Origin: a virus
Direction: 5' to 3' (one strand)
DNA: 20,714 nucleotides
Virus record (IMG/VR): IMGVR_UViG_3300020469_002533
Coordinates: 1 to 20,714 of that record
Under the pieces are notes generated by a model, which saw only the letters and a list, made by a program, of their open reading frames with translations, made no database searches and was not told the DNA's origin. The translations under genes and the position numbers were made by a program. Shown here piece after piece: positions 12,293 to 18,553 of the stretch. Numbering within the stretch: the stretch's first letter is position 1; each line of letters starts with the position of its first letter.

Positions 12293-12336
12293 AACAAAAC
12301 ACGAACAAATCTAACTGCGTCATTCTGACAGCAGTA

Positions 12337-12357
12337 AACCCTTGAAAAATAAGGGTT
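12337..12357 (+). terminator. Hairpin ending the 8636-12292 operon
   Basis: AACCCTT-GAAAAAT-AAGGGTT is a perfect 7-bp stem with a 7-nt loop, followed by AAATTATTTT. It lies 45 bases after the methyltransferase stop and just before the duplicated promoter, as expected for a terminator, although the U-run is broken. Confidence 0.55.
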
Positions 12358-12387
12358 AAATTATTTTAAAAAAAATGGTAATAATGC

Positions 12388-12416
12388 TTGACTTTCATGC
12401 CGATTGGTGATAGCAT
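12388..12416 (+). promoter_or_regulatory. Upstream promoter copy of the duplicated pair
   Basis: TTGACT (12388-12393), 17-base spacer, TAGCAT (12411-12416) with TGA directly before it as an extended -10. Predicted +1 is 12423, the A of an ATG opening a 21-codon reading frame. Confidence 0.65.
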
Positions 12417-12422
12417 ATAGTT

Positions 12423-12488
12423 ATGTTAGAAAAATCATTGAAAAATAAGACTTATTTTATTTTCAAAAAAAACGGTATTAGTGCTTGA
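12423..12488 (+). CDS. Possible 21-codon leader peptide or duplicated gene start
   Basis: A 21-codon frame starting MLEKSLKNKTYF, rich in lysine, whose TGA stop lies inside the -35 of the next promoter. Its ATG coincides with the predicted start of transcription from the upstream promoter. Its first bases resemble the start of the VWA gene after copy 2 (ATG then A-rich with a second ATG-like triplet), so it may be a remnant of the duplication rather than a functional peptide. Confidence 0.25.
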   Translation: MLEKSLKNKTYFIFKKNGISA

Positions 12489-12513
12489 CATTACTACCGA
12501 TTGATGATAGCAT
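12485..12513 (+). promoter_or_regulatory. Promoter of the zincin/VWA gene
   Basis: Consensus TTGACA (12485-12490), 17-base spacer, TAGCAT (12508-12513) preceded by TGA. Predicted +1 about 12520, leaving a leader of only about 5 bases before ATG 12525 and no Shine-Dalgarno. Confidence 0.7.
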
Positions 12514-12524
12514 AGCACTATATT

Positions 12525-14936
12525 ATGAAAAACATGAAAACAAATAAAATTAACAATCAGGCAAAATCTTATCTTGCAAAATTACTTGCTACTGAAAATA
12601 TATCAGTAGAACACAAAAAAGTACAGACTGCTTATTTTGATGTAAAATCTAGATTACTTGTTTTACCTATATGGAAAAACATGAATGAAGATATTACAGA
12701 CCTATTAATATCTCACGAAGTTGGTCATGCATTATTTACACCATCATCAGGATGGCAAGACGCTGTTGTTGAGAAAAAGATTCCAAAGTCATTCTTAAAT
12801 GTTATTGAGGATGCTCGTATCGAAAAACTAATCAAAAGAAAATATCCTGGTTTATCACAATCATTTATCAGAGGCTATAGAGACCTAATCAATAATGATT
12901 TCTTTGGCACTAAAGATAAAGACCTTGACGATATGCTTCTTATTGATAGATTAAATATTCATTTTAAATCTTCTCATGTAGAATCTCCTATCACATTTAC
13001 TGATGAATATGAAAATGATGTAGTTTCTAGAATGAATAAATTAGAAACTTTTGATGATGTGATTAATCTTGCTGAAGAATTATCAGAATATTGTAAAGAC
13101 GAAGCCGAACAAAAAGAACAAGAGATGGAATCTGAAACTGCTAGTGATAATGATTATGACGGCGAAGATGATGATGATATGAGAGACGGTGAAAGTCAAT
13201 CTCAACCAGATAATAATGAAGAAGATGATGAAGAAGAAAATACAGGTTCTAAAAATTCTGAAGATGAGGGTGAAGATGATACCAAAGATAGTGAAGAAGA
13301 ACAAAAAGATCCTATCAATAGAGACGAACCTTCTAGTGGTCAACAATCTGATACAGACCTACAAGGTGAACCTGCAAAACCTGCTGAGATACCTGAAGAA
13401 GTATCTGCCGAAACAGATAAATCTTGGGAAAACAAAAAAGAAAATTTATTAGATCCTAAATCTAAAAACAATGAGTATATCAATATTCATAATTACAAAA
13501 ATGTCAACGATTATATTGTTGATTATAAAACTGTACTAAAAGATTTTGATTTAAAATTTAGACAACCTTATAAAGAAGAAACTAAAAGTCTATCAACGCA
13601 AAATGCTATATCTAAAATGATTTCTAATTTCAGACAGTTCAATAAAGACCAATCTAAAAAAGTTAGTTATATGGTCAAAGAATATGAGATGAAAAAGGCT
13701 GCCTCTGCTTACTCTAGAACTCAACAAGACAAATCAGGTATTGTTGACCCACTTAAATTACACAGTTACAAATACAATGATGATATCTTTAAAAGAATGG
13801 CAGTTACACCTGATGGTAAAAATCACGGTATGATGATGTTTATAGACTGGTCAGGTAGTATGCATGATAAGATTACACCTACAATACATCAATTAATGAA
13901 TTTAACTATGTTTTGTCAAAAAGTAAATATACCTTTTGAAGTATATGCTTTTAGTAATGATGGTCGTGCCTACAGAGATGATACTAGAAAAGATAAAAAA
14001 TCTCCTAGTTATCAAGACGGCGATATTACAGTTGATGAAAGAATGTCTTTATTAAACTTTGTATCTTCTAGAATGAATGCTAAAGAATATGAGAAAGGTA
14101 TGATTAACTTATTCATGCTTTCTGAAAAGTATAATCAAAAATATAATTTTAATGGTATGTCTAGAAGAAAAGTATACGATTTACCTGCCGAAGAATATAA
14201 CAAAATACTAGAAGAAAGTAATTATATAAATGATTTACCACGAGAACCTCAAGGTTACCATATGTGTTCTACTCCACTAAATGATTGTATCATGGCTGCG
14301 ATGCCGATGGTTAATGCTTTCAGAAAAAGATATGCTATTGATAAAATGAATACAATTTTTTTAACTGACGGTAGTAGTGATGGTAATGATAGAATTGTTA
14401 TCATGAATCCTAGTAAAGAAGAAACACAAAAAAGACATTTACATAAACAAGAAGGTGGTTATTATATTGGTTACGCTTCTTATAACAGTAATCTAGTATT
14501 AAGAGATACTAAAACTAAAAAAGAATATAATGATATTGGTCGTAGAAATATGACTGATGGTTTACTAGACGCTTTAAGAGAACGAACTGGCACTAAAGTA
14601 TTAGGTTTCTATATTTCAAGTGGCAAACAAGTTGATCGTTACACTATGGATACCTACTTTCCTACATATTCATATGATGGTAAAGAAAAAGTTTTTGATA
14701 GAAAAAAAGTAATGGCAGAGTTTAGAAAAAACAAATGTTTAGTTGTTAAACACAATACTGCTTATGATGAATTTTATCTCCTTGCTGGGGGTGAATTGCA
14801 GATATCTGATGGTCAAATGGCGACACCATCAGAGAATGCTAAAAAGAGTGAAATAAAAAGATTATTCACATCTAATCTAAAATCAAATAGAGATAGTCGA
14901 ATAGTCTTAAATAAATTTATTTCGCAAGTCGCTTAA
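12525..14936 (+). CDS. Zincin plus VWA-domain protein (CobT-like), phage type
   Basis: 803 aa, the largest gene here. The N-terminal domain carries a zinc-protease HEVGHALF motif (H64-E65-x-x-H68) and, about 30 residues on, NVIEDARIEKLIKRKYPG, which could supply the third metal ligand. Residues about 190-300 are a very acidic, low-complexity linker rich in Asp, Glu, Ser and Gln. The C-terminal half is a von Willebrand A domain: MIDAS motif DWSGSM (D441-x-S443-x-S445), then CSTPLNDC (MIDAS Thr) and FLTDGSSDG (MIDAS Asp). This arrangement is like CobT/VWA partners of MoxR- or CobS-type AAA+ ATPases, and such an ATPase is encoded two genes downstream. The pair may remodel or cleave a protein target; true cobaltochelatase activity is unlikely as no third subunit is seen. 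Confidence 0.78.
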   Translation: MKNMKTNKINNQAKSYLAKLLATENISVEHKKVQTAYFDVKSRLLVLPIWKNMNEDITDLLISHEVGHALFTPSSGWQDAVVEKKIPKSFLNVIEDARIEKLIKRKYPGLSQSFIRGYRDLINNDFFGTKDKDLDDMLLIDRLNIHFKSSHVESPITFTDEYENDVVSRMNKLETFDDVINLAEELSEYCKDEAEQKEQEMESETASDNDYDGEDDDDMRDGESQSQPDNNEEDDEEENTGSKNSEDEGEDDTKDSEEEQKDPINRDEPSSGQQSDTDLQGEPAKPAEIPEEVSAETDKSWENKKENLLDPKSKNNEYINIHNYKNVNDYIVDYKTVLKDFDLKFRQPYKEETKSLSTQNAISKMISNFRQFNKDQSKKVSYMVKEYEMKKAASAYSRTQQDKSGIVDPLKLHSYKYNDDIFKRMAVTPDGKNHGMMMFIDWSGSMHDKITPTIHQLMNLTMFCQKVNIPFEVYAFSNDGRAYRDDTRKDKKSPSYQDGDITVDERMSLLNFVSSRMNAKEYEKGMINLFMLSEKYNQKYNFNGMSRRKVYDLPAEEYNKILEESNYINDLPREPQGYHMCSTPLNDCIMAAMPMVNAFRKRYAIDKMNTIFLTDGSSDGNDRIVIMNPSKEETQKRHLHKQEGGYYIGYASYNSNLVLRDTKTKKEYNDIGRRNMTDGLLDALRERTGTKVLGFYISSGKQVDRYTMDTYFPTYSYDGKEKVFDRKKVMAEFRKNKCLVVKHNTAYDEFYLLAGGELQISDGQMATPSENAKKSEIKRLFTSNLKSNRDSRIVLNKFISQVA

Positions 14937-14955
14937 TTGAAAGGAACTTTATATT

Positions 14956-15198
14956 ATGAAAAATATAACTGACACTCAAAAAAACTTTGTATCAACAGCC
15001 AAAGAAATGTTTGGCGAAAGTACAACTGAGGTGAGCCGTCAAGATGTTATTAAGATGATTAATGACAAAGGCATTAAGTATCCTGTATGGTTACTTAAAT
15101 CACCTACATACAGAATCGGAAGAGGTAAATATTCTTTACCTACTTTTGAAGAAAGTATTGCTCAAGTTCAGACTACTACCGAATCTGATAGTGAGTAA
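14956..15198 (+). CDS. Small protein matching the N-terminal domain of the CobS-like ATPase
   Basis: 80 aa, Shine-Dalgarno GAAAGGA about 10 bases before the ATG. It aligns along most of its length with the first about 60 residues of the ATPase at 15383: here EVSRQDVIKMINDKGIKYP then WLLKSPTYRIGRGKYSLP; there NVSRSEINELVDNGTIKNP then WLKSNQYKVDRGVYALP. The shared pattern (helix, SRxxI helix, P-x-WL, then R-G-x-Y-x-LP hairpin) looks like a small winged-helix-type domain. It probably arose by duplication and may compete with or adapt the ATPase's N-domain for substrates or for the VWA partner (inference). Confidence 0.65.
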   Translation: MKNITDTQKNFVSTAKEMFGESTTEVSRQDVIKMINDKGIKYPVWLLKSPTYRIGRGKYSLPTFEESIAQVQTTTESDSE

Positions 15199-15211
15199 AC
15201 AAAAAAATCAA

Positions 15212-15238
15212 AATATGGGGGTATTTTTCCCCCATATT
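15212..15238 (+). terminator. Strong perfect hairpin after the small winged-helix-like gene
   Basis: AATATGGGGG-TATTTTT-CCCCCATATT: a 10-bp perfect stem with a 7-nt loop, 14 bases after the stop codon. On the + strand it is followed by GACAAAAAAG with no U-run; on the - strand by a T-rich run. It may terminate, or act as a 3' stabiliser of the VWA-containing transcript. Confidence 0.6.
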
Positions 15239-15314
15239 GACAAAAAAGAACAAAGTAAGAACAAAATAATTGAAAAAAGCGCAGAAAACAAGGGAAATAA
15301 AATTGGTTATATGC

Positions 15315-15343
15315 TTGACTTTATTATCAATTCATGATAGCAT
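15315..15343 (+). promoter_or_regulatory. Promoter of the CobS-like gene, third copy of the GCTTGAC/TAGCAT type
   Basis: GC-TTGACT (15315-15320), 17-base spacer, TAGCAT (15338-15343) preceded by TGA and followed by AGCACYAT as in the promoter at 12485. Predicted +1 about 15350, giving a 33-base leader with Shine-Dalgarno AAAGGA. Confidence 0.75.
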
Positions 15344-15382
15344 AGCACCATACTAAAGAACTACATTATGAAAGGACTAAAA

Positions 15383-16591
15383 ATGACTACACTAAATGAA
15401 CTACAAAAAGAAACTGTTGAAATTTTATATAAACATTATAAAAAATCAAATGTTTCAAGGTCCGAGATCAACGAATTAGTTGATAACGGCACAATCAAAA
15501 ATCCATCTTGGTTAAAATCTAATCAATATAAAGTTGATAGAGGCGTTTACGCTCTACCACTTGATGGTGATATTTCTTCACAAGTAAAAGAAGAAGTACT
15601 ATCTGAATTACCTAAGAATGAAACAGCACCTGTTAATGATACAGTTAGTCAGGCTGCTTATATTGTTTCATCTTTAACTGGTAATATTGTACCTACTAAA
15701 GATCCTGTGTTTGTACCATGGGGTTATTTCAAAGATATCAAATCAATTGTTTCTAGTAAACAATTTTATCCTATCTTTGTAACAGGTCTTTCTGGTAACG
15801 GTAAGACTATGAACGTATCTCAGGCTTGTGCTCAAGCAAAAAGAGAATGTATTAGGGTTAATATTACAATCGAAACCGATGAAGATGATTTACTCGGTGG
15901 TTATAGATTACAAGATGGTCAAACTGTTTGGCAGAATGGTCCTGTAATCGAAGCAATGGAAAGAGGTGCAATACTTCTTTTAGATGAGATTGACCTTGCG
16001 TCTAATAAGATCATGTGTTTACAACCGATCTTAGAAGGTAATGGTGTCTTTCTTAAAAAGATTAACAAGTTTGTTAAACCTGCACCAGGGTTTAATGTGA
16101 TTGCTACTGCCAATACTAAGGGTCAAGGATCTGAAGATGGCAAGTTCATCGGTACTAATATTCTTAACGAGGCATTCCTTGAGAGATTTCCGATTACTGT
16201 TGAACAGGCATATCCTACAAATAAGATTGAAAGTAAAATCTTATTAAATGTTATGTCCGAAAAGGGTCTGACAAAACAATCAGATGAGAAGTTTGCCAAT
16301 AATCTAATTACTTGGGCAGACATTATTCGTAAAACTTATTACGAAGGCGGTGTAGATGAGATTATTTCTACTAGACGATTAGTTCACATTGTCGAGGCAT
16401 TCATTATCTTTAAAGATAAAATGAAGTCTATTGAGATGTGTACCAATAGATTTGATGTTGATACTAAAACATCATTTATGGATTTATACTCCAAAGTTGA
16501 TGGCGGCGAAGATGTCACCACATGGGGAAATCCAGTTCTAGATGAAGAACCAGATTCCAATGATAGTGAGGAAGATAACCCTAGTTATTAA
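15383..16591 (+). CDS. cobS: CobS/MoxR-like AAA+ ATPase
   Basis: 402 aa from ATG 15383, chosen because AAAGGA sits 6 bases upstream; an in-frame ATG at 15368 would place that Shine-Dalgarno inside the gene. Residues 1-60 form the small domain also encoded alone at 14956, then a linker to about 125. AAA+ core: Walker A GLSGNGKT at 135-142 with K141, ETDEDDLLGGYRL (MoxR/CobS pre-sensor loop), Walker B LLLDEID with D201/E202, sensor-1 VIATANTKGQG, and arginine-finger region NEAFLERFPI. CobS homologs are frequent in T4-like marine phages, where they are annotated as porphyrin biosynthesis, but with a zincin/VWA protein nearby a MoxR-type protein-remodelling role seems more likely. The last about 25 residues are acidic. 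Confidence 0.85.
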   Translation: MTTLNELQKETVEILYKHYKKSNVSRSEINELVDNGTIKNPSWLKSNQYKVDRGVYALPLDGDISSQVKEEVLSELPKNETAPVNDTVSQAAYIVSSLTGNIVPTKDPVFVPWGYFKDIKSIVSSKQFYPIFVTGLSGNGKTMNVSQACAQAKRECIRVNITIETDEDDLLGGYRLQDGQTVWQNGPVIEAMERGAILLLDEIDLASNKIMCLQPILEGNGVFLKKINKFVKPAPGFNVIATANTKGQGSEDGKFIGTNILNEAFLERFPITVEQAYPTNKIESKILLNVMSEKGLTKQSDEKFANNLITWADIIRKTYYEGGVDEIISTRRLVHIVEAFIIFKDKMKSIEMCTNRFDVDTKTSFMDLYSKVDGGEDVTTWGNPVLDEEPDSNDSEEDNPSY

Positions 16592-16680: not shown

Positions 16681-17952
16681 ATGAATAAAACTTTAAACTC
16701 AAAAATACAAACAGCCAAAGTAAAAGATTTAAACCCACATCCTTTAAATGTTAAATTAAATCCGATAGAAAAAAACGAAGAAGAAAGAAAAGATTTAGCA
16801 AAAAGATTTGCTGAACATTTTGAACAAGAGGGTATTCCTAATCATAATCCTATTCTTATTTGTCCAGAAACTAATACTATTTGGTCAGGACATAATAGGT
16901 ATTTTACAGCAGATGAAGAAGGATATGATGAGGTTCAAATAGCATACACCACAAAAAAATATGATCCTAATGAACCAGAAGAGGATCAAATGTATTATTT
17001 AGAACAACACAATGCTGATGGTAAAAGGGATGAAGGAAAACCAAGTGTTATTTTAAGAAAATGGCACGCTATGAAAGAAGCACATACAGATGAAGATAAC
17101 AAGTATAGAATAAACGCTCCATATAGTGATTTTTTTAAAGATTTTGCTCATTCAAGAAAGGTTACCCCTAAAGAATTTAAACAATTGTTAGTGGTAGAAG
17201 AATATAATCCTGTTTGGATTGAAGATATTGAAACTAAAAAAATTAGTTCTATTCAAAAGGCATATGATATGACTAAAGCAAAAGAACCTGATGATAAAGA
17301 AAATCCTAATAGACATAATTTTATCAAAACTTTAGACGAGAATCCTAAAATTAAACAAGACATTGTAGATAATACTATTAAAGTTTTAAAAGATTTTAAA
17401 TCAATCTCAATTGGTAATAAACCAATGTTATTTGGTGACGATATATCTTGGGAAACTAATGCTCTATCAGCCATACTTTCTCATACAGTTATGTCAGCAA
17501 CTGCTGATGCTTTCAAAGAGTGTAAAATTCCACTAGTAGAAGATTGCATTACGCCTGGAGGATTAAATAAAAAACAAGGATATGCTGATGTTCAATTTCC
17601 TAGTTTAAATAAAGATGGATTTCAAAAAGAAAGAATTGAAGTTAAGGCAGCAAATGCTGGTGCTACTTGTGCTAGTACAAATATTAGTAGTGGTTTGGGT
17701 GCTACAAAAATTCATCCACATGAATATATGATTGTAGTATGGGATAATGATTTTAAAAGATTGTTTATAATGATAACTACTTTAACCAAAGAGGATTGGG
17801 GTTCTGGGTCAGAAGGAGAGAAAATAATGTCTATGAAAACTTGGCATAAAAATCATTATCATAATAAAGATGAATATAGATTTTTGATTGGTGAGATTTA
17901 TGAAGATCAAAAAGGTTTACCAAAATTTGATTTTGGTAAAACTAATATTTAA
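16681..17952 (+). CDS. ParB-like N-domain with PD-(D/E)XK nuclease-like C-domain
   Basis: 423 aa, Shine-Dalgarno GAAAGGA 7 bases before the ATG. The N-terminal about 95 residues follow the ParB/Srx pattern: KVKDLNPHPLNVK, then NPILICPETNTIWSGHNRYF, where GHNR73 sits at the usual GHHR/GERR phosphate-binding box. A middle helical region (about 100-240) is unassigned. The C-terminal part shows GYAD303VQ, then RIE320VK322AANAG, spaced like the PD-(D/E)XK nuclease core D...ExK, followed by a strand-helix block with MIVVWDNDFKRLFI. It may be a DNA endonuclease or a restriction-like enzyme of which the phage's own DNA is protected by methylation (methyltransferase at 11213), but that link is inference. 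A seven-codon frame overlaps its start. Confidence 0.6.
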   Translation: MNKTLNSKIQTAKVKDLNPHPLNVKLNPIEKNEEERKDLAKRFAEHFEQEGIPNHNPILICPETNTIWSGHNRYFTADEEGYDEVQIAYTTKKYDPNEPEEDQMYYLEQHNADGKRDEGKPSVILRKWHAMKEAHTDEDNKYRINAPYSDFFKDFAHSRKVTPKEFKQLLVVEEYNPVWIEDIETKKISSIQKAYDMTKAKEPDDKENPNRHNFIKTLDENPKIKQDIVDNTIKVLKDFKSISIGNKPMLFGDDISWETNALSAILSHTVMSATADAFKECKIPLVEDCITPGGLNKKQGYADVQFPSLNKDGFQKERIEVKAANAGATCASTNISSGLGATKIHPHEYMIVVWDNDFKRLFIMITTLTKEDWGSGSEGEKIMSMKTWHKNHYHNKDEYRFLIGEIYEDQKGLPKFDFGKTNI

Positions 17953-17993: not shown

Positions 17994-18347
17994 ATGAAAA
18001 AACAAAAACCAAAAATGTATATTAAGGGATTACCAGAATCAGTTAAGATTGGATATGTTGACTATCAATTTGATTTTTGGCCTGACACATTTGCAAGTAC
18101 CGAAGAAGCTCAAGGTGAGTTCTTTCAATCACAAGGTAAGATTGGATTAAAAGAGTCCACTCTAGATAGTATTCATGGTGTGAATACAGTTTTACATGAG
18201 ATTATGCATGGTATAATTTATCAGTATGGATTAGTTGAAACACTAGGTGAGAAAGAAGAAGTAACAGTTAATACAATAACAAATGGTCTAACAACTGTAT
18301 TTAAAGATAATCCATGGTTGGTTGACTACATAAAGAAGCACATATGA
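17994..18347 (+). CDS. Small HEXXH metallopeptidase-like protein
   Basis: 117 aa. The motif TVLHEIMHGI (H68-E69-x-x-H72) is a zinc-protease signature; an acidic helix follows with EKEEVTVNTITNGL, where a Glu could be the third ligand, as in SprT/ImmA-like minimal proteases. The N-terminal part is a small beta-rich section (VKIGYVDYQFDFWP...GKIGLKES). Similar small HEIMH proteins are found in marine phages, function unknown to me. The ATG has no Shine-Dalgarno and sits at the predicted transcription start. Its TGA overlaps the ATG of the S21 gene (ATGA), so both are translated from one message. Confidence 0.6.
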   Translation: MKKQKPKMYIKGLPESVKIGYVDYQFDFWPDTFASTEEAQGEFFQSQGKIGLKESTLDSIHGVNTVLHEIMHGIIYQYGLVETLGEKEEVTVNTITNGLTTVFKDNPWLVDYIKKHI

Positions 18348-18553
18348 CAATAGAAGTAAATGTAAGAAATAACAATGTCGAAAAGGCTATGAGAGTTTTG
18401 AAAAAGAAACTACTTAAAGATGGTTTGATGAGAGAATTAAAAGATAGACAGTATTATTCTAAACCCTCTGCTTTAAAAAGAGAAGCAAAGAAACAGGCAG
18501 TTAGAAGATACAAAAAAGATCAAAGATTGAAAGCCCTAAGCGAGGGCTTCTAA
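18344..18553 (+). CDS. rpsU: Ribosomal protein bS21 homolog encoded by the virus
   Basis: 69 aa small-subunit protein S21. The N-terminal MTIEVNVRNNNVEKAMRVLK and the arginine/lysine-rich helix (RELKDRQYYSKPSALKREAK, then RYKK) match S21 along the whole length. S21 sits near the anti-Shine-Dalgarno end of 16S rRNA and takes part in initiation; S21 is the ribosomal protein most often carried by aquatic viruses, including pelagiphages. It is translated from the same message as the small metallopeptidase through an ATGA overlap. It may replace host S21 on ribosomes and bias initiation toward viral messages (inference), which is notable given the many starts here without a Shine-Dalgarno. Confidence 0.93.
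   Translation: MTIEVNVRNNNVEKAMRVLKKKLLKDGLMRELKDRQYYSKPSALKREAKKQAVRRYKKDQRLKALSEGF
18531..18549 (+). terminator. Hairpin at the end of the S21 gene
   Basis: AAGCCCT-AAGCG-AGGGCTT is a perfect 7-bp stem with a 5-nt loop lying within the last codons of S21. The bases after it (CTAAAAGAATT) are A-rich, without a U-run, so termination is uncertain; it could also protect the 3' end. Confidence 0.4.

Follow-up and report, generated by a model that had tools for sequence, protein, structure and literature searches.

Do the adjoining genes annotated as 'peptidase' and cobS in marine T4-like phages serve vitamin synthesis, or do they encode a machine of another kind? Many surveys of marine viruses list cobS, one of the cyanophage core genes (PMC3037559), as an auxiliary metabolic gene for vitamin B12; should the pair be a zincin–VWA/AAA+ remodelling machine, such tallies would have another meaning and marine T4-like phages would have a core function that is still unexplained. 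We analysed a 20,714-bp genome fragment, the entire IMG/VR record IMGVR_UViG_3300020469_002533 (the window), in which three genes stand in a row at positions 12525–16591, as an earlier note made from the sequence had correctly described: one for an HExxH/VWA protein, one for a protein of 80 amino acids (aa) and one for a MoxR/CobS-like AAA+ ATPase. The note had proposed a remodelling or protease machine rather than cobalamin synthesis, and this proposal is supported here, since vitamin synthesis accounts for the evidence less well than does a protein-remodelling machine near DNA-replication genes. We consider it probable that the cassette encodes a MoxR/VWA remodelling machine of the finger-in-pore type that carries a zincin domain and acts near replication, with the 80-aa protein as a trans-acting copy of its targeting domain. 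The arrangement is real, conserved and partly new. Its two-gene core is not new and is found in essentially all marine T4-like phages (PHROG_459/PHROG_249, 'peptidase'/'CobS'); because this VWA/ATPase pair has long been known, the cassette is less novel than the note implied, and the new part is the conserved 80-aa gene.

The first gene (12525–14936, + strand) encodes an 803-aa protein of PHROG_459 ('peptidase'; E 2.7e-210). The protein consists of an N-terminal zincin-like HExxH domain, a disordered acidic linker (about residues 208–290; net charge −31), a conserved predicted finger block (about 380–433) and a VWA domain (430–803) with a complete metal-ion-dependent adhesion site (MIDAS). The fusion of an HExxH domain to a MIDAS-complete VWA domain, claimed in the earlier note, was confirmed at the residue level: HEVGH occupies residues 64–68 (12714–12728, + strand) and DWSGS residues 441–445 (13845–13859, + strand), with T583 and D615 completing the MIDAS. 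Among 63 homologues (29–77% identity), H64, E65, H68, N92, E95, D96 and R98 were invariant, as were the MIDAS residues D441, S443, S445, T583 and D615. Only 35 of the 803 columns are invariant and the nine named catalytic and MIDAS columns are all among them (p about 2e-13); this invariance is not a product of chance. The C-terminus nearly always reads ...[VI]A among the homologues. Relatives in SSU5, an ICP2-like phage, a phage of Ochrobactrum and Vibrio plasmids have likewise kept HExxH and MIDAS.

The zincin-like site comprises H64, E65 and H68, with E95 as a candidate third ligand, so that the gluzincin motif (HExxH plus a downstream glutamate) is present and its four residues are invariant. 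In an AlphaFold2 model (predicted local distance difference test (pLDDT) 77, predicted template modelling score (pTM) 0.73), HExxH lies in helix 55–71 and E95 in the following helix 88–106, a gluzincin-like order; residues 208–290 are disordered and the VWA domain is C-terminal. Fold searches of the model against the PDB returned, for the VWA part, the MIDAS domain of Rea1/MDN1 as the top match (Z 16.7, 3.5 Å, 226 residues aligned) and the NorD VWA domain in NorQD (Z 15.8, 5.7 Å, 259 residues aligned). The protein matched no family in Pfam or NCBIfam, and a PDB sequence search with its profile gave no match. DUF2201 (PF13203) metallopeptidase–VWA proteins also combine HExxH and MIDAS in one chain, but they are shorter and the surroundings of their HExxH are spaced differently; the family was rejected, as no phage homologue had a PF13203 match and DUF2201 is rare in Pseudomonadota.

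The third gene (15368–16591, + strand) encodes a 407-aa protein of PHROG_249 ('porphyrin biosynthesis'; E 1.5e-120), although the start is more likely at 15383 (402 aa), because the ribosome-binding site and the relatives favour that position. Its assignment in the earlier note as a MoxR/CobS-type AAA+ ATPase holds (AAA_5 E 2.4e-18; Walker A at residue 140, Walker B at 203); a predicted winged-helix N-domain (about residues 1–64) precedes the AAA_5 module. The relatives of solved structure are Midasin, CobS, NorQ and CbbQ (PDB CobS E 1e-21). A MoxR-type AAA+ module thus stands beside a gene for a MIDAS-complete VWA protein, which places the two genes among the MoxR AAA+/VWA pairs.

A pair of this kind for comparison is NorQ/NorD, whose VWA domain is among the top PDB fold neighbours of the phage VWA domain. 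NorD pushes a pre-MIDAS finger into the NorQ ring, anchored by its C-terminus, and ATP turnover in NorQD twists the VWA domain against the N-domain via a flexible linker (PMC13036017, PMC9976466); the NorD finger (residues 403–448) is essential for client remodelling and the last two residues are required for NorQ binding (PMC13036017). The phage protein is NorD-like in having an N-domain, a long disordered linker, a conserved pre-MIDAS block, a MIDAS and a conserved ...VA C-terminus, and by analogy the finger-in-pore and C-terminal contacts may apply to the phage pair. In contrast, NorD is not known to have an HExxH, a winged-helix N-domain is missing from NorQ and the client is another. Midasin/Rea1 provides the closest solved relatives of both the ATPase modules and the MIDAS domain, but is one giant polypeptide of eukaryotic ribosome assembly with no zincin domain. 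The layout also resembles that of McrB/McrC, in which a targeting domain sits N-terminally on an AAA+ ring and the partner carries a pore finger and a catalytic domain (PMC13036017); the McrC partner is an endonuclease without VWA, and homology to this system was compared at the AAA+ module only.

On the basis of the NorD-like layout, the zincin active site in the N-domain and the winged helix on the ATPase, we infer a targeted remodelling protease. The ATPase would assemble as a ring and the VWA protein would plug it by the pre-MIDAS finger and conserved C-terminus, in the way that NorD plugs NorQ; with ATP turnover, the VWA part would then be twisted or pulled relative to the N-terminal zincin domain across the acidic linker, and a bound client would be remodelled and probably cut. 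The winged-helix N-domain of the ATPase may steer the ring to the place where it acts, which is probably DNA or a protein of replication. HExxH + VWA + AAA pairs with checked motifs adjoin replication genes in unrelated elements: gp46/gp45/gp44 in T4-like phages, DNA polymerase in SSU5, primase in JPW and toprim/orn in a Vibrio plasmid. In the Vibrio cholerae plasmid pNDM-116-14 (locus L252, 2685–7986), consecutive genes for an AAA ATPase, a DUF3150 protein and an HExxH/VWA protein, close to those for toprim and oligoribonuclease, make up a plasmid relative of the system.

The HExxH domain could instead be a pseudo-enzyme, that is, a metal-stabilized clamp for binding only, within a pure chaperone of the NorQD/CbbQO kind. 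NorD and CbbO work without proteolysis (PMC9976466), and cellular CobT shows that the domain can exist without HExxH. However, the general-base glutamate E65 is strictly invariant in the 63 homologues and HExxH recurs in the SSU5, ICP2-like, Ochrobactrum phage and plasmid relatives, so that this alternative appears possible but doubtful. The invariant HExxH offers a one-residue test (E65Q) of the phage VWA protein.

The second gene of the cassette (14956–15198, + strand) has its own ribosome-binding site and encodes a stand-alone copy of the ATPase N-domain. Its homology to the N-terminus of the ATPase, noted earlier, was borne out (32% identity over 72 aa; BLAST E 8e-9 in a single comparison). 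The 80-aa protein is predicted to form a winged helix at residues 6–60, followed by a disordered acidic tail ending in SDSE; the model has an H-E-H-H-E-E order with pLDDT over 90 within the domain. A BFVD fold search with this model returned the N-domain of a phage 'CobS' as the top match; the protein had no family match in Pfam or NCBIfam, and the model had no convincing structural match in the PDB. The domain carries a net charge of +3 to +10 in 35/35 copies, which is compatible with nucleic-acid binding, and the tail is acidic, with SE as the last residues in 29/35.

All three genes occur together in 33 non-redundant contigs among the IMG/VR relatives, with the 80-aa gene between the VWA and ATPase genes, and three further truncated contigs have the 80-aa gene upstream of the ATPase. 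Thirty contigs with the same ATPase N-domain are without the 80-aa gene, but the loci were picked by similarity and the proportion of 33 to 30 is therefore no population estimate. In cultured phages, the 80-aa gene was not found as a separate gene, the matches there being ATPase N-domains. On a tree of the AAA part of the ATPase, presence of the 80-aa gene takes three changes compared with about 30 in shuffles; these are probably one gain, one loss (L039) and one odd placement (L079, in which the gene lies downstream). The median pairwise ratio of nonsynonymous to synonymous substitution rates (dN/dS) was 0.27 over 240 non-independent pairs, indicating purifying selection on the gene. A recent duplication of the adjacent ATPase was rejected as its source: the 80-aa copies cluster together against the ATPase N-domains (weak support, 61/91) and do not share a one-residue deletion that the domain of the neighbouring ATPase has. 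A 107-aa open reading frame 0.7 kb before the ATPase gene of a distant relative (L183, 2992–3315) matches the N-domain family weakly and is perhaps another stand-alone copy.

Comparison of the window with two related loci revealed an exchange of this single gene. DNA identity to L008 is 81% for the 3′ end of the VWA gene, 57% for the 80-aa gene, 83% for the spacer and 88% for the ATPase gene, whereas the corresponding values for L003 are 64%, 83%, 69% and 80%; judging from these identities, the window carries one allele type of the 80-aa gene within the background of the other. The 80-aa protein thus does not seem tied to a particular ATPase allele. Given that its gene can be placed elsewhere (L079) or exchanged alone, it behaves as expected of a trans-acting module. 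In the machine that we favour, it would supply the targeting domain as a separately expressed copy, acting in trans on the partner to which the ATPase winged helix binds; it could be an adaptor, or a competitor by which target occupancy by the ring is set. The data are compatible with both, and with the decoy or adaptor proposed in the earlier note. In either case, the protein provides a small handle on what the N-domain of the ATPase ring recognizes.

The promoters raise a different role for the 80-aa protein. The module CTTGAC-N15-TGATAGCAT is found in exact form at 12387, 12484 and 15314, and with up to three mismatches there are 6 matches compared with 0.70 expected (0/100 shuffles reached 6). 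The first two sites lie in a promoter region ahead of the VWA gene (12336–12530, + strand) in which about 97 bp are duplicated in tandem, an arrangement kept in L008; the third belongs to a sigma-70-like promoter of the ATPase gene with the same extended −10 module (15314–15343, + strand), and of the 34 related loci checked most have a similar promoter 50–90 bp ahead of the ATPase gene. The related promoters of the earlier note are therefore present before the VWA and ATPase genes, but the 80-aa gene, which follows the VWA gene, has none of its own; given the spacing of 19 bp without an intervening promoter, the VWA and 80-aa genes are probably on one transcript and the ATPase under its own promoter. 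A strong 10-bp hairpin between the 80-aa gene and the ATPase promoter (15212–15238) is no canonical + strand terminator because that strand has no T-run, and Rfam gave no match. With near-identical modules before both transcription units, the 80-aa protein, a predicted and positively charged winged helix, might be a DNA-binding autoregulator of the shared module that is linked to the machine by regulation only. We regard this as rather unlikely: many loci with the 80-aa gene lack the exact module, and a role in the machine fits better because phages in which no stand-alone copy exists still carry this domain fused to the ATPase.

That the pair is a true CobS/CobT that joins host CobN and boosts cobalamin synthesis has been proposed in print for tailed viruses, with the phage cobT described as 'mistakenly annotated as a peptidase' and as hijacking the host CobN (PMC8651126). 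Cobaltochelatase CobS/CobT is likewise an AAA+ plus VWA pair, and the ATPase is similar to CobS (TIGR01650 E 1.3e-20, in addition to the PDB match above). The finger/MIDAS region of the phage protein aligns with cellular CobT (profile E 7e-5), as does one N-terminal helix (ExxRxE; E 0.0016), both being single-comparison values; the phage VWA family and CobT are, on these alignments, related. However, the ATPase scores 73.8 bits against the CobS equivalog TIGR01650, for which the cut-off is 558.55, and 0/63 phage homologues matched the CobT Pfam families at E 0.01. HExxH was found in 63/63 phage proteins and at the homologous place in none of 49 cellular CobT proteins, which show H[DN]xxx[HA] there (one of the 49 carries HExxH elsewhere in the N-terminal region). 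The view of the phage 'peptidase' as a mis-annotated CobT is therefore doubtful, and 'peptidase' appears the better-founded label, as HExxH is also kept in the phage and plasmid relatives named above.

The genomic and host context also weighs against cobalamin synthesis. CobN (PF02514) was not found in four complete relatives (HTVC008M, Mosig, S-PM2 and ACG-2014f), in which positive controls were detected, the window itself being only a fragment of its genome, and the ribonucleotide reductase of these phages is the B12-independent class I enzyme (PF00268 over the cut-off in 4/4, NrdJ in 0/4). The nearest isolates of the window are the Pelagibacter phages Mosig and HTVC008M (Kyanoviridae): Mosig is the sole megablast match, its ATPase shares 64.6% identity with that of the window, and the gp45 clamp is 55% identical to the HTVC008M clamp. 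The window thus comes from a marine virus related to Pelagibacter phages and likely with a SAR11-type host, and SAR11 is reported to be B12-auxotrophic (PMC9296465); among Alphaproteobacteria at large, CobN was present in 117 of 289 sampled genomes. Together, these points make a viral CobS/CobT improbable. Least probable by far is a passenger role for the 80-aa gene, which would then be a fragment that was duplicated and retained by chance: it is short and absent from most relatives and from cultured phages, but its recurrence in the 33 contigs, low dN/dS, conserved C-terminus and own ribosome-binding site speak against this.

Several points weigh against the remodelling machine as we propose it. 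The fold-search matches of the VWA-protein model cover residues 372–803 only, with none over the zincin half, and the zincin fold is therefore predicted from the motif and secondary structure. The winged-helix call for the 80-aa protein is weak (best PDB match, the MCM8 winged helix, Z 4.8). Most marine T4-like phages, cultured ones included, do without the 80-aa gene, and its single-gene exchange argues against tight co-evolution with the neighbouring ATPase. The link to replication is circumstantial, coming from gene neighbourhood, and ring and finger assembly, zinc binding, proteolysis, the client and the role of the 80-aa protein are all inferred. We suggest only tentatively, and with low confidence, that the 'cobS/cobT' of the most abundant marine phages is an ATP-driven zinc protease or remodelling machine targeted to DNA or the replisome, regulated in the present clade by a separately expressed, exchangeable winged-helix copy.

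The window otherwise encodes T4-like genes, namely the gp46/47 endonuclease, peptide deformylase, Hsp20, the gp45 clamp and the start of gp44. Among marine T4-like phages, the VWA/ATPase pair is commonplace: the two genes have matches in 463 and 512 phage records, respectively, with equal counts for both in each group (365 records of Synechococcus, 61 of Cyanophage, 24 of Prochlorococcus and 3 of Pelagibacter), and the pair lies there between gp46 and gp45; the cassette of the window is alike in both genes and in this site, and its clade adds the stand-alone N-domain gene. Phage-type VWA/ATPase genes were also found in metagenome-assembled genomes of diverse bacteria (L167, L168, L171 and other loci), which are most likely phage contigs binned with them. 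Directly 3′ of the ATPase gene, 16681–17952 encodes a 423-aa protein that matches nothing in Pfam and whose N-terminus is ParB-like (PHROG_8071, E 7e-5). Shortly downstream, 17994–18347 encodes a second, minimal HExxH protein (117 aa; ...VLHEIMHGI...; PHROG_1233) with a weak SprT-like score, and 18344–18553 a phage homologue of ribosomal protein S21 (PF01165, E 4e-15), which HTVC008M and Mosig have too.

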